DNA of 64,000 nucleotides from an uncultured Methylophilaceae bacterium (GTDB taxonomy: Bacteria > Pseudomonadota > Gammaproteobacteria > Burkholderiales > Methylophilaceae), in assembly GCA_905182075.1 (NCBI GenBank), contig CAJIZS010000001.1, positions 868,001 to 932,000 on the forward strand, given 5' to 3'. Positions within the stretch are counted from its first letter, which is position 1, and each line of letters starts with the position of its first letter. The notes under the pieces were generated by a model. It saw only the letters and a program-made list of their open reading frames with translations, ran no database searches and was not told where the DNA came from. The translations under genes were made by a program, and so were the position numbers. Positions 3,000 to 40,851 of the stretch are shown here, piece by piece.

Positions 3000-3804
3000 A
3001 TGGCTGACATTAAAAAAGAATTTATAGTTCCGGATTCATATTCTGGAAAAAGAGCTGATATTGTTGCTCAAGCTTTAATGCCAGAATACTCTAGAGTTAG
3101 GATCCAGAACTCAATGAAAGATGGTTTTATTCTATGTAATAATCAAAAAATTTCACCTAAAGAAAAACTTATTGGTGGAGAGTTACTTTGTATTGTGATT
3201 CAAGCTCAAGAAAGTGAAGATCAATTTAATCCAGAAGAAATTTCTTTGAATGTAATTTACGAGGATGATGAAACTCCAGTAACTATTTTCCCTGGTATGG
3301 TTGCCTCAGTTGATATTATTCGTGGCAATCGATCAATTCTTGAATTATTTTTCATTACCCGGGTAATAAGTCTTTAGCAAGAGGAGGGATTGTGCATCGC
3401 TTAGATAAAAATACTTCTGGATTAATGGTTGTAGCAAAAAATGAAATTACGCAATTAAATTTAGTAAATCAACTTCAGTCAAAAAAAGTTTATCGAGAGT
3501 ACAAGGCAGTTGTTTGGGGACAGTACCTTGTAATTTTGCAGACAAAATAGAGGTAAGAAAAATTCGTGGTATTAATCATATTAATGGTAAGGGCGAAAGT
3601 TTTCTTAAAATTCGTATGGCGTCTTAATTGAAACAGGAAGAACTCATCAAATTAGGGTTCATCTTGCCTCAAAGAATTTACCTATTATTGGAGATTCAAC
3701 ATACAACTCAAGAAAAAAGATTGCTAAAAACTCATTACGGAAAAATTAAGAGATTTGACTACTAGCTTTCCAAGGCAAGCTCTTCATGCAAGCTCTCTTG
3801 GGTC
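3000..3804 (+). CDS. rluD: RluD-type 23S rRNA pseudouridine synthase, multiply frameshifted
   Basis: RluD converts uridines of helix 69 of 23S rRNA to pseudouridine. The intact start gives an S4 domain ([10 protein letters not shown] to about residue 85). The catalytic core is spread over several frames: a PPGMVVHPGN-like stretch near 3285-3330, [20 protein letters not shown] (3380-3440, with the catalytic Asp of HRLDK), [12 protein letters not shown] (about 3640) and RQALHASSL (about 3775). At least four one-base shifts are needed. After ALHASSL the expected RluD C-terminus is not found. A sequence of different character follows (next entry). Position between bamD and pgeF matches the E. coli order. 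Confidence 0.8.
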
Positions 3805-11443: not shown

Positions 11444-12687
<1,244 letters not shown>

Positions 12688-12721: not shown

Positions 12722-14053
12722 TTGGATAATAACGCTATGAAAAAAGTAGCTACAATAATTTCAGCTTCTTGGATTTATACGGCTGATAGTGAAGACAGTT
12801 TACTTAAAGATTATTCGGTGGTAGTTGATGCTAATAAGATAATTGATTTACTTCCAACAGAGAAAGTGTTTGAAAGTTACGAAGCTAGTGAAGTCTACTC
12901 TCTGTCAGATCACATAATTATTCCTGGCCTTATAAATACACATACTCATTCGGCGATGTCTCTATTTAAGGGGTATGCAGATGATTTGAGACTTAAAAGT
13001 TGGCTAAATGAATACATATGGCCGGCTGAGAAGCAGCATGTGGACAGTAAATTTGTTAAAGATGGGTCGATGATTGCAATCGCTGAAATGCTCAAAGGTG
13101 GAATAACTACTTTTAACGATATGTATTTTTTCCCTCAATCAACTGCTGAAGCTGTTTCTGAAACAGGAATTCGATCAAATATAGGTTTAGTTGTTTTGGA
13201 ATTTTCTACAAATTACGCTAATGATCCAGGAGATTATTTAAGTAAAGGCTTTGAATTTAGGGATTCATGTAGAGAAAATTCATTAATCACTACATCTATA
13301 GCCCCCCATGCACCTTATTCAGTATCAGATAAGACATTTGAGTTAATTGGAACATATGCGGAGCAATTAGGTTTATCAATTCATACTCATCTTCAAGAAA
13401 CTCAATCAGAGGTTCAGGAAAGCATAAAGAAGTTTGGAGTAACTCCAACACAAAGGTTAAGTAGTTTAAATATATTGGGACCAAATTTACTAGCAGCACA
13501 TTGTGTGCATTTAAGTGAGCAGGATTTAGATTTACTTGCCCTTAATAATGTTTATATTTCTCATAACCCATCATCAAACCTTAAGTTAGGAAGTGGATTA
13601 GCTGACTTATCATCAATGATTAAGAGGGGAGTGAGTGTTTCCTTAGGTACCGATAGTTCAGCAAGTAATAATCGATTGGATATTTTTGAGGAGATGAGAC
13701 TCGCATCTTTATTGGTAAAAGGGAAATCGGGTAACCCCGAACATTTACCTGCTGTTGAAGTTTTAAGAATGGTAACTATTGAAGCCGCGAAAGCATTGGG
13801 TCTTGAGTCAGATATTGGTTCAATAGAGATAAATAAAAAAGCTGATATGGTGGCAATAAACCTTGATTCAATTGACTTACTTCCATCTTACGACCCTTTG
13901 GCTACAGTAATTTATTCTGCCGGAAGGTCAGATGTCAATTACGTGTGGGTTGACGGTAATGTTAAATTAAAAGAAAATGAGTTAGTAAATATAGATACAG
14001 ATAAACTTAAATTTTTAGCAAAATCATGGCAAACAAAAATTCAAAAAATATAG
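12722..14053 (+). CDS. mtaD: MtaD-type 5'-methylthioadenosine / S-adenosylhomocysteine deaminase
   Basis: An amidohydrolase of the TRZ/ATZ group, about 440 residues, unbroken. Metal ligands are visible in order: H-x-H in GLINTHTHSAMSLFKG, His in IHTHLQETQSEV, His in AAHCVHLSEQD, and Asp in SLGTDSSASNN. These enzymes deaminate SAH or MTA, products of methylation and polyamine synthesis. The frame opens with TTG 12722; ATG 12737 (MKKVATIISASWIY) is the better start. mtaD-ubiG-gph is a common proteobacterial cluster. Its 3' end overlaps the ubiG start by 28 bases. Confidence 0.87.
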   Translation: MDNNAMKKVATIISASWIYTADSEDSLLKDYSVVVDANKIIDLLPTEKVFESYEASEVYSLSDHIIIPGLINTHTHSAMSLFKGYADDLRLKSWLNEYIWPAEKQHVDSKFVKDGSMIAIAEMLKGGITTFNDMYFFPQSTAEAVSETGIRSNIGLVVLEFSTNYANDPGDYLSKGFEFRDSCRENSLITTSIAPHAPYSVSDKTFELIGTYAEQLGLSIHTHLQETQSEVQESIKKFGVTPTQRLSSLNILGPNLLAAHCVHLSEQDLDLLALNNVYISHNPSSNLKLGSGLADLSSMIKRGVSVSLGTDSSASNNRLDIFEEMRLASLLVKGKSGNPEHLPAVEVLRMVTIEAAKALGLESDIGSIEINKKADMVAINLDSIDLLPSYDPLATVIYSAGRSDVNYVWVDGNVKLKENELVNIDTDKLKFLAKSWQTKIQKI

Positions 14054-14725
14054 ATATTAATGAGGTTGAGAAATTTAATTTGCTTGCCCATAAAATGAAA
14101 CTCTCTATTTACATAATAAGCAAATCCTTTAAGGTTGGGTTATATTAAATCTAGCGTAAACCTCTCTGGGAAAAGCATTTTAGACGTTGCCCTTCAGAAC
14201 AAAATTGACGTCCCCTATTCTTGTCAAGGAGGCGTATGTAGCACTTGTATGCAAGGGTACAAGGTTATTAAAATTGCAAAGCTTCACTCTAAAGAATCTT
14301 GTTTAGATATTAATTATAAGTGTATGAATATTGAGGATTTTTTAAAAAATAATAAAAGTAAATATGATGTTATAACTTGCCTTGAAATGCTTGAGCATGT
14401 TCCAAATCCAAGTTCAGTGATTAATGCGTGCGCAGAACTTTTAAAGCCGGGAGGAAGAATTTTTTTCTCTACCATTAATAAAAATCCCAAAGCATTTTTG
14501 TTTGCTATTGTCGGAGCTGAGTATTTGCTGAATTTGCTTCCAAAAGGAACTCATGAGTATTCAAAATTTATAAAACCTAGCGAACTAATCCATTGGTGTA
14601 ATGAGTCTGGTTTAGTCTTGAAGGGTATTATCGGTATGACATATAACCCGATTACTAAAAGATATAAGTTAGGCAATGACGTCTCTGTGAATTATATGGT
14701 TGAGATTAGCTTCCTTAATGAGTAA
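14026..14725 (+). CDS. ubiG: UbiG, ubiquinone O-methyltransferase, motif I replaced by a ferredoxin-like segment
   Basis: ATG 14026 opens with MANKNSKNIDINEVEKFNLLAHK, the UbiG N-terminus, inside the mtaD 3' end. Frame is lost near 14095 and resumes at YIKSSVNLSGKSILDV. At that point UbiG should show the SAM-binding motif I (D-V-G-C-G-G-G). Instead the sequence reads ALQNKIDVPYSCQGGVCSTC, a plant-type [2Fe-2S] ferredoxin Cys motif, then returns to UbiG at IAKLHSKESC. Everything later (DVITCLEMLEHVPNP, LKPGGRIFFSTINKNPKAF, PKGTHEYSKFI) is normal UbiG. As written, the enzyme would lack its cofactor loop, so the patch is probably an artefact. Confidence 0.8.
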
Positions 14726-20579: not shown

Positions 20580-21429
20580 TTACTTTCTTAAAATCATTTT
20601 AAGTAATATTTTTATTCCTTTAGGAAGAATTTGTAGTAAATACATTGCGCATAAACTTTTAAGGTTTTTTACAGAACACCCAAGCAGTATTGGTGAAACA
20701 TATTTTGAGCATTTTTTAGTAGCAATTAGTTCCAAAGTAATGGATTAACAGGTGTGGTGTTTTGAAAAACACTAAACTGAATTGTAGATTTTCCATTTAA
20801 ATTATTAGTAAAAACCTCTCCAATATTCTGACCTATTCCAAGGAAAAGTTGAGGAAAATAAACCAACTTTATCAAAAATATTTTTTTTATAGGCAACAGA
20901 TGGATAATTGAAGGATGGGTTACCTTTTTTTATATTTTCTTTGTATGTTTCACCAATAGACATTCCATCAAAGTAGTTTCAAAAATAAAAGATAGTTTTT
21001 ATTTTTATTAAAACCGTCAACAATAGCTGCTAAAGTATCTTTTTTGATCCAATCATCGGCAGAAAGAACAAATATAATTTCTCCCTTTGCTAAACAAATA
21101 CCCTTGTTTGCAGCTTGTGTAGAATTCTCATCTTTTTCCGAAACCCATTTTGAAATTAATTTATTATGCTTATTAAGTAAAGCAGTGGTACCATCTGTTG
21201 AAAGACCGTCAATCACAATAAATTCAAAATTTTTATAAGACTGATTAGCAACAGATAACAATGTTTTCTCGATAGTTTCCTCTTCATTACGGACAATTGT
21301 TATGACACTAACTAATGGTGCTGAAGAATTATCTAAATTAAGTTTCTTGGCTCCATTGGGATGCAACCAATTTTTACTTATACTGAACTGATTAATAAAA
21401 GGGATTATTAATTTTTTTATTTTAAGCAT
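20580..21429 (-). CDS. Family 2 glycosyltransferase, frameshifted C-terminal half
   Basis: The first 150 residues are a GT-A fold: SAPLVSVITIVRNEEETIEK, then FEFIVIDGLSTDGTTALL, and the metal-binding acidic motif VLSADDWI. It would transfer a sugar from a nucleotide-sugar donor to a surface polysaccharide or lipid carrier. After 20968 the frame is lost, but GT2-like pieces continue (GMSIGETYKENIKK, FNYPSV, NIFDKVGLF, then LPKGIKILLKMILRK), ending near 20580. ATG 21429 overlaps the stop of the upstream glycosyltransferase gene (TAATG), suggesting translational coupling. Both lie in the tRNA-Ser island. Confidence 0.7.
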
Positions 21430-23096
21430 TAATTTATTCTTTCTATTAAGGTTTTATTTATAATTTTTTTATTAAAAGAAAATTCAAAAATTTGAGGCCA
21501 AACTTTGTCTCCATGCCAAACTCTATTGTAAATTTTATAAGCATTATTGGTAATTTTATTAGTTAGTAATTTAGATTCATTACTAAATTGAATTGCAATC
21601 TCTAATTCTTTATTTGTATCAAATGGTATGTAGTGAGTAAAAGGTTCAAGAAGATGATGAAGTTCATCTGTTCTCTCTATAATGAGTAATGTTTTGCATG
21701 CAAGTGAGTTATAGGTCCTTCCTCCAGTTACTCTGATTTTTGATGACCTTGCAGTTAACTCTAAAACTGCATTAGATTCACGAATATATTTTTCAAACCG
21801 AACTCTACTCAAACTAAACTTCTTCTCTCTTTTGTGAGTCTCAACATAATGAGCAATATTATTTTTTTTACAATATCTTTTAGCTACAAATAAATATCCA
21901 TATCTTGGTATATTTCCTATACCAGAAAAGAACAAGTTCCCCCCTTTTTTCTTTGCTGGATAAAAACTATAAGGATCTACCGTGTATGGCACATAAAAAA
22001 TATTTCTAACAGCTCTATTTGCCCATCCAGGATTACTAAAGATACAAATATCCATAAAATTTGCCCATAATTCCATGCTCGCAAATGAAGCTTCTGAAAC
22101 CATGTCATCTGCATGACCTGTGATTCTTGCAGAAGTTATTGACTTGATTTTTTGGATTGTTTTACTATTAATGGTTCCAACACTAAAGACGTAATTTATA
22201 TCAATAAATATTAAATCTGGTTGAAATTTAGAAATTTTAATTAGTAATTTCTCTGTCTCAGCTTCAAGAATTTTTATTCTGTCTGATTTAGATACTTCAA
22301 AATCAGATTCATGGTAAGAAATTTTACTTGAATCGAATCTATTAAATCTAAAAAGTCTTGCGGCTGAGTTAAACCAATACATTCCGTTTCCAGCGATATT
22401 TTTTTTACTATTTTTAACGTTTGGAGAGAAAACAAAAAGAACTTTTTTATTAAGAACCGAACTAGGCTTGAATTCACCCTGATCTTTTAAATGATTCAGG
22501 GGTGCATTAGCCGAATGCTTCTCTAAACGATCCTCTACCATCTTATTAAGCTCACCTAGAGATGAATATGACTTCTTATTTGGAAAAAACTCACGGAAAA
22601 AAAACTTCCTAGCGATTATAGATAATGGCAAACCTAGCCATAATATTTTTTTTCTAAAAAGTAAATATATTAATGAATCAACTTTTTTTTTAAATAATCT
22701 GTATATATAAATATCTAAACCCATGAACACGAGTCTTATCACTCGTAAACTTTTGAAGGTTATTTCTGGAAGTAACATCACATAATGGCTTACCGTCCTT
22801 AGAACCCTCAAAGATGCTATTACTTTTTCAGTCTTTGGGTCTAGTCCCTTTGCCCACATCACCTTGTAGTCATCTCTAATCTGTCTAGCTTGAAGTAATG
22901 ATACAGTAGGGTAGCTACCAACACCTCTAGCATGTTCTTTATTGTCTCTATATAAGCGTACTAGCCAATTCCTTCTACCATCAGCATAGATTCTGAAGAA
23001 TAGGTTACCACCATCTGCATAGTCTTGGTGAAGCTTACCCTTTGGACAAGTTGCATTCTTTACTTTAAGATTGGTTAATAAGTTTTGTTTAGTCAT
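21429..23096 (-). CDS. Integrase N-terminal domain fused in frame to a CgeB-like glycosyltransferase
   Basis: Residues 1-90 from ATG 23096 (MTKQNLLTNLKVKNATCPKG, YADGGNLFFRIYADGRRNW, GVGSYPTVSLLQARQIRDDY) are the arm-binding DUF4102 domain of P4-type tyrosine integrases. The catalytic domain with R-H-R-Y is absent. After KTEKVIASLRVLRT the protein becomes a glycosyltransferase: a basic hydrophobic stretch, FSPNVKNSKKNIAGNGMYWF, a Rossmann-like half, then KKKGGNLFFSGIGN, RESNAVLELTAR, and RVTGGRTYNSLACKTLLI, typical of the CgeB/GT1-like group. The frame also opens at 23138. Either an integration or deletion event fused the two genes, or an assembly error did. The glycosyltransferase's own start may be MGLDIYIYRLF. 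Confidence 0.65.
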   Translation of the reverse strand: MTKQNLLTNLKVKNATCPKGKLHQDYADGGNLFFRIYADGRRNWLVRLYRDNKEHARGVGSYPTVSLLQARQIRDDYKVMWAKGLDPKTEKVIASLRVLRTVSHYVMLLPEITFKSLRVIRLVFMGLDIYIYRLFKKKVDSLIYLLFRKKILWLGLPLSIIARKFFFREFFPNKKSYSSLGELNKMVEDRLEKHSANAPLNHLKDQGEFKPSSVLNKKVLFVFSPNVKNSKKNIAGNGMYWFNSAARLFRFNRFDSSKISYHESDFEVSKSDRIKILEAETEKLLIKISKFQPDLIFIDINYVFSVGTINSKTIQKIKSITSARITGHADDMVSEASFASMELWANFMDICIFSNPGWANRAVRNIFYVPYTVDPYSFYPAKKKGGNLFFSGIGNIPRYGYLFVAKRYCKKNNIAHYVETHKREKKFSLSRVRFEKYIRESNAVLELTARSSKIRVTGGRTYNSLACKTLLIIERTDELHHLLEPFTHYIPFDTNKELEIAIQFSNESKLLTNKITNNAYKIYNRVWHGDKVWPQIFEFSFNKKIINKTLIERIN

Positions 23097-23101
23097 AGTG
23101 A

Positions 23102-23135
23102 TATACGATTTGATATACGGTAGTAGTCTAGTAGT
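23102..23135. repeat. Repeats upstream of the integrase fragment
   Basis: ATATACGATTTGATATACGG holds two copies of ATATACG and is followed by TAGTAGTCTAGTAGTC, a near-exact short duplication. This is a plausible operator or arm-site cluster, since integrases often bind next to their own gene. Not tested. Confidence 0.3.
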
Positions 23136-23224
23136 CAAATTATACTAAATATCATAAGGCTCTTCAAGACATTAAGATTAACATGAAAATTGGTAGTAAT
23201 AGGTATAGGGGGTTTATTGAATTT

Positions 23225-39607: not shown

Positions 39608-40851
39608 ATGGCTGAAAATAAAGATAAATCTCTGTTTTGTTCTTTTTGTGGTAAAAATCAGCAATGAAGTTAGAAAACTTATTGCAGGTCCAACTGTTTT
39701 TATATGTGACGAATGCGTTGACCTTTGTAACGATATAATTATCGAGGAAACCAAGGATATACGACCAGCACCAAATAAAAAAGAAACAAGACTCCTTACC
39801 CCAGAAAACCTTTATTCAAAGTTAGGTGAGCATGTTATTGGCCAAGATAGCGCTAAAAAAAGTTTAGCAGTCGCAGTTTATAATCATTACAAGAGATTAC
39901 AAAAAACAACCTTACCAGAGTTGTGTGAGGGAGGCGACAGAATTATTGTTGCCCCAACTGGTTCAGGAAAGACCCTCTCTGCTGTACTTCCTATGTTACA
40001 TCGGTGTCCTTAGTTGGAAGAATGGAAACCATTGTAACTGAGGCGGGTTATGTTGGAGAAGACGTAGAAAATATTTTGCAAAAATTACTCCAAAAATGTG
40101 ATTATGATATTGAAAAAGCTCAGAGAGGAATTGTTTACATAGATGAAGTTGATAAAATTTCAAGAAAATCAGAAAACCCATCTATCACAAGAGATGTTTC
40201 GGGGGAAGGTGTTCAGCAAGCACTATTAAAGCTAATAGAGGGGACTGTTGCGTCTGTCCCACCTCAGGGCGGAAGGAAGCACCCTAACCAAGTAGTTTGT
40301 TCAGCTTGACACAACAAATATCTTATTTATTTGTGGAGGAGCATTTGATGGCCTTGAAAAAATAATAAAAGAAAGGACCCGAAAAGACTAGTATAGGATT
40401 TGTGCTGAAGCTTCTAGTTGAAGATGACCTTGCTTGGAGAAGGGTTACGTCCTAGTAGAAGATTTGTTGAAATTTGGTCTTATTCCAGAATTTGTGGGTC
40501 GTTTGCCTGTTTTAGCAACGCTTGACTCCTTGACGATAGAGAGCACTTTTGAAACTAATTAACTGAGCCTAAAAATGCATTACTAAGCAATATCAAAAAT
40601 TATTTGAAATGGAAGGTACAGAGTTAGAGTTTCGTGATGATGCTATTGAAGAAATAGCTGTCCAAGCAATTAAAAAAAAGACTGGGGCAAGAGGCTTGAG
40701 ATCAATTATGGAAGCATCCCTAAAAGATGTTATGTTTGAGTTGCCATCAATAAAAAACCTTCAAAAAGTAATTATTGATAAGTCTGTTATCAAAGATAAA
40801 ACAAAGCCATTTCTTGTGTATGCTAAAAATAGTCAGCATGCAAGTAATTAG
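39608..40851 (+). CDS. clpX: ClpX unfoldase, frameshifted, Walker A region replaced
   Basis: AAA+ partner of ClpP. The zinc-binding domain ([18 protein letters not shown]) and [20 protein letters not shown] are normal. From about 39915 to 40015 the expected ClpX stretch is replaced by [32 protein letters not shown] and a stop, which resembles a superfamily 2 helicase Walker A. ClpX resumes at [20 protein letters not shown] and [13 protein letters not shown]. Between 40300 and 40600, recognisable ClpX pieces ([18 protein letters not shown]) lie in mixed frames. The C-terminus [19 protein letters not shown] ends at 40851. Confidence 0.87.

Follow-up and report, generated by a model that had tools for sequence, protein, structure and literature searches.

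A Flavobacteriaceae-type ferredoxin fragment over the SAM-binding loop of a Methylophilaceae ubiG: a very probable chimera of the data

Introduction

UbiG (TIGR01983) is the O-methyltransferase of ubiquinone synthesis. In its relatives the sequence D-[VI]-G-C-G-G-G is SAM-binding motif I, a loop that an acidic motif follows downstream. PaaE-like reductases carry a C-terminal ferredoxin domain (TIGR02160, PF00111); the plant-type [2Fe-2S] motif comprises four cysteines, C-x4-C-x2-C-x29-C. A published UbiG–ferredoxin fusion was not found in the open-licence literature. When long reads of mixed samples are corrected with the wrong short reads, new errors are introduced ('overcorrection') and indels persist (PMC10690975).

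An earlier sequence-only reading of a 64,000-nucleotide stretch from an uncultured Methylophilaceae bacterium (this whole stretch is called the window below) placed a [2Fe-2S] ferredoxin motif at the SAM loop of a ubiG gene. Here we compare this locus with its relatives and with the putative donor of the ferredoxin piece, and weigh the explanations for it.

Results

A ferredoxin fragment in place of the SAM-binding loop

The frame of 14135 translates as ...NLSGKSILDV-ALQNKIDVPYSCQGGVCSTCM-QGYKVIKIAKLHSKES... The features of the locus are:

14035 to 14094, plus strand: N-terminal part of ubiG (KNSKNIDINEVEKFNLLAHK), which aligns with the N-termini of UbiG from 19 relatives
14095 to 14122, plus strand: second lesion of about 28 bases, frame shifted, seen as gaps against G015 and G019
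14123 to 14188, plus strand: ubiG resumes (NPLRLGYIKSSVNLSGKSILDV), from the alignment; the final ~20 bases are assignable to either parent
14135 to 14725, plus strand: open reading frame with the patch, 196 residues
14168 to 14250, plus strand: ferredoxin patch, from a Fer2 fragment, 90% identity to L055 and GC content
14251 to 14725, plus strand: remainder of ubiG in the same frame as the patch (TIGR01983 UbiG, whole ORF 187.4 bits)

The Fer2 profile (PF00111) matches residues 12–39 of the ORF (E 4e-8, 33.5 bits versus a cut-off of 21); the cut-off is passed by profile positions 15–44 of 77 only, about one-third of the profile. The NCBIfam PaaE model TIGR02160 matches residues 8–39 (E 2.8e-9) with 36.3 bits, far lower than its whole-protein cut-off of 420.8, as expected of a fragment. 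The UbiG model TIGR01983 is passed by the whole ORF (187.4 bits versus a cut-off of 102.95, E 2.2e-55). These profile matches exceed chance. The patch holds three of the four cluster cysteines, as C-x4-C-x2-C. The C-x29-C spacing is observed by eye in the donor relative L055, whereas the 196-residue ORF has no cysteine at the fourth spacing; its next cysteines lie, also by eye, 18 and 25 positions on.

Among 61 genomes searched, 59 (the organism's own counted in) match the ORF at some level, several of them weakly and perhaps not through UbiG; a match is absent in G026 and G055. From the loci that matched best, 19 UbiG sequences were taken for alignment. All 19 carry D[VI]GCGGG (18 as DVGCGGG, L013 as DIGCGGG), and at the position of this SAM loop the window reads SGKSILDV-ALQNKIDVPYSCQGGVCSTCM-QGYKVIKIAKLHS. 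Compared with relatives such as L010, the window has lost this loop to the exchange, together with the acidic motif downstream. The placement of a ferredoxin motif at the SAM loop is thus borne out by the Fer2 match and by the 19 relatives, every one of which keeps the loop and none of which has the patch.

The certain foreign core is 14189–14250, with a GC content of 0.45 versus 0.34 for the window, and the patch starts somewhere within 14168–14188. UbiG sequence returns with CAAGGG (from 14253); counted by eye, 64 bases separate it from the GTT that ends at 14188. Since the corresponding number in L010 is 66, the patch is a replacement without insertion. A mobile insertion was considered as well and ruled out by inspection, a roughly equal length having been replaced.

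The donor and the junctions

A search of genome_contigs with an exact 35-base pattern gave a single hit. It lies within a PaaE-like frame of a Flavobacteriaceae MAG (L043, CAJQQG010000026.1), where the identity extends to 38 bases, 14213–14250. When 397 Flavobacteriaceae genomes, sampled evenly out of the larger group, were searched with a 141-base query, 13 matched at E ≤ 1e-8. Six of these 13 matching places were inspected, and the best among the six is L055, with 90% identity over 14168–14250 (83 bases) and a frame that translates as GKSVLDLALQNNIDVPYSCQGGVCSSCIAK. In the donor relatives the stretch lies at the end of a frame of ~340–350 residues. Judged from these matches, the donor type is a PaaE-like reductase gene from Flavobacteriaceae, a family of another phylum than the host; the exact donor species was not found among the genomes searched.

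As DNA, the patch finds nothing in 100 relatives better than E 0.0103 (20 bases); this search used 77 bases against 101 genomes (the organism's own plus the 100), 56 of which match at the loose threshold of E ≤ 10. In viral_contigs, neither donor nor hybrid was found with two exact patterns of 25 bases and 22 bases (0 matches). A donor within the organism's own genome (G000) was also tried and rejected: Fer2 matches three further places there, but outside the patch itself nothing matches its DNA better than E 0.138.

At the left junction the window reads GGGAAAAGCATTTTAGACGTTGCCCT, compared with GGGAAAAGCGTTTTAGACCTTGCCCT in L055 and GGGCAAAGCATTTTGGACGTGGCTCT in L056, both donor relatives. 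The coding is shared from both sides: [IVL]-L-D-[VI] is encoded by all 19 aligned UbiG, G-K-x-[IVL]-L-D by 10 of the 19 and exactly G-K-S-I-L-D-V by L008, while the donor relatives encode GKSVLD or GQSILD. The switch point may lie anywhere within 14168–14188. On the right, donor similarity ends at ~14250, and the window (GCAAGGGTACAAGGTTATT) tracks UbiG (L010: ATCAGGGTGACAAGGTTATT) when an additional base and a missing one are allowed for by eye, which is a typical leftover of error-prone reads. Both junctions are in frame.

The sequence-only reading had named a PaaE-type gene as the second parent and a shared S-I-L-D-V stretch as the site of the join. The TIGR02160 match, the 38 identical bases and the 90% identity over 83 bases in Flavobacteriaceae uphold the first point, and the left-junction coding common to UbiG relatives and donor relatives upholds the second. 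The same hybrid in related genomes, which would have told against an artefact, was looked for and not found among the 19 aligned UbiG or in the 100 relatives searched.

A second lesion in ubiG

The UbiG residues NIDINEVEKFNLLAHK belong to the frame of 14035 and the remainder to that of 14135, and stops separate the two. Where relatives encode WWDPTSEFKPLHEI or similar, the window has ~28 unrelated bases at 14095–14122; the gap spans 14094–14123 when aligned with G015 (14 residues missing) and 14097–14123 when aligned with G019 (13 residues missing). UbiG resumes at NPLRLGY in the other frame, whose open stretch has its earliest start codon in the TTG of the Leu before GY. A single open frame running on from the UbiG N-terminus is not present in the window. 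With its N-terminus in another frame and this second lesion, the window sequence would therefore give no normal UbiG even without the ferredoxin piece.

Damage across the window and the genome

Proteins of the relative G015 were matched to the window, with the genus relative G019 serving as the control; matches below 35% identity were dropped and 31 were kept. A gene was counted as intact if it gave one match in one frame with no stop and a printed coverage of at least 0.90. Two of the 31 genes are cut by the window ends, and 9 of the remaining 29 are intact in the window. The G019 control matched 22 of the 31; two distant-paralog matches (27% and 25%) and one gene cut by the window end were set aside. 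Of the 19 comparable genes, 5 are intact in the window versus 19 in G019. Two of the 14 failures in the window are by coverage alone: ubiG (0.84), a broken gene according to the alignment, and G015_972827 (0.87), whose shortfall may be natural divergence. Over the whole window, most comparable genes are frameshifted, interrupted or incomplete relative to those of the relatives.

Gene order was compared at the window ends only. It agrees with G015 and G019 over the first 20 kb, where the neighbours of ubiG stand in the same order as in both relatives, and from 53.6 kb onwards it once more matches that of G015. The organism's own genome (1,107,123 bases, 2 contigs) is 47.36% complete by score; six single-contig genomes of the same genus score 96–99%.

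Other candidate foreign pieces

A strong candidate for a further foreign piece, one that derives from the same gene of another genome, lies in purA. The stretch 12052–12508 (plus strand) has 79% DNA identity to L078, a genome of the same phylum from another class, and 66 of its residues are 94% identical to L078 versus 56% in the genus relatives G019 and G015. Of 398 genomes searched within the phylum, 42 match at E ≤ 1e-20 (the own genome included). The GC content of 12190–12510 is 0.486.

In clpX (39894–40010, plus strand) the Walker-A region matches a DEAD-box helicase (E 5.5e-8; the piece alone 2.6e-6), and the frame changes after this piece. The stretch that appears to be replaced measures 140 bases versus 147–162 in relatives (7 of 9 fetched clpX loci). 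PTGSGKTL is common to clpX and helicase genes and the ClpX model runs on to residue 112, so the case for a foreign piece in clpX is weaker. The case at 3264–3353 (plus strand), in a gene that we take to be rluD-like, is likewise weaker and a lead only: this piece resembles the end part of a secretion adaptor of the HlyD type (NCBIfam, E 5.3e-4, 19.1 bits versus a cut-off of 208.65), had no match in Pfam, and would replace ~99 bases with ~85, as counted by eye.

A separate observation concerns 21429–23138 (minus strand), where one ORF has an integrase arm domain (E 1.2e-16) together with a glycosyltransferase-like domain (E 1.7e-6). It is perhaps a further chimera or a real integrase remnant.

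Discussion

The locus resembles UbiG in that its ORF scores over the TIGR01983 cut-off and its neighbours are ordered as in G015 and G019; it differs in that the SAM-binding loop is replaced and the N-terminus lies in another frame. To the C-terminal ferredoxin domain of PaaE-like reductases it is similar through the 28 patch residues that match Fer2, but the reductase part is missing, as are about two-thirds of the Fer2 profile and one of the four cysteines.

Very probably, the chimera arose in the data and not in the cell: a PaaE-like reductase gene from Flavobacteriaceae contributed 60–80 bases that take the place of the ubiG SAM loop, in a genome assembled from a mixed sample with error-prone reads. 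The donor is foreign, the junction is absent in the relatives examined and like damage lies nearby. The view of the sequence-only reading that the patch is an artefact gains from the same foreign donor, from the second lesion and from damage that reaches far beyond the ubiG site. Some observations count against an artefact. The frame is kept at both junctions, as happens only sometimes in random artefacts. Length is kept less well elsewhere, namely in clpX, at 14095–14122 (28 bases for ~14 residues) and in the rluD-like gene, and in clpX and the HlyD-like case a short piece gives a modest family match.

The starting material would have been a mixed microbial sample sequenced with error-prone reads. 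Wrong correction or polishing of a poor read stretch (or also assembly) seems the likeliest route, with the wrong path entered at a word common to both genes around G-K-S-I-L-D. A wrong path entered at a shared word would produce a replacement of near-equal length, a shared motif at the switch, foreign donors and leftover indels, and the same process would have left neighbouring genes with frameshifts and further foreign pieces. We infer that the sample was mixed, what kind of reads was used, that a correction step went wrong and exactly how long the shared word is, the last because it is read from the ubiG of relatives and not from an undamaged copy of the organism's own. The nearest published counterpart differs in part. 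Overcorrection, in the portion of the source drawn on here, concerns strains and haplotypes and includes no join of unrelated genes at a shared motif (PMC10690975); in the window the donor comes from another phylum, and the method behind the genome is inferred.

An artefact of another origin, in which whole-genome amplification or library preparation produced chimeric molecules that then entered the assembly, is unlikely. The pieces in ubiG and purA do derive from other organisms, and joins at short shared words, such as the one in ubiG, are typical of amplification and library chimeras. A near-equal replacement with flanks that resume correctly would, however, demand two coordinated joins within 100 bases, and with many small frameshifts present, noisy-read correction or polishing is the better fit. 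It is very improbable that ubiG is a real dead gene, that is, a pseudogene in a truly decaying genome into which foreign DNA recombined at the shared motif. Such an account could draw on the upstream break in ubiG and on donor DNA available in the community, but housekeeping genes of the window are broken too that are whole in other members of the genus (19 of 19 in G019), a simultaneous loss of so many is hardly possible in a living cell, and more than one donor group is represented among the foreign pieces. A working hybrid, in which a UbiG relative recombined at the shared G-K-S-I-L-D-V to gain an iron-sulfur-ligating loop instead of the SAM loop, is very unlikely and the least probable of these readings: the ORF runs across the patch without a stop and keeps three of the plant-type cysteines, but the SAM loop is lost, the donor's fourth cysteine (29 residues past the third in L055) is missing, the N-terminus is in another frame, and no such hybrid was seen in the relatives examined (19 aligned UbiG; patch DNA search of 100 relatives).

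With the chimera placed in the data, the locus has no functional novelty on present evidence; it represents neither a new kind of enzyme nor a living cell's gene. A true hybrid would amount to a protein of a new kind, for which the open frame itself is the sole support. The genome (1.1 Mb, 47% complete) is, without its reads, unfit for claims of fusion, gene loss or pseudogenes. The finding is significant only as a caution: a chimera that stays in frame and scores over the cut-offs of two curated families could be taken into databases as a new domain architecture.
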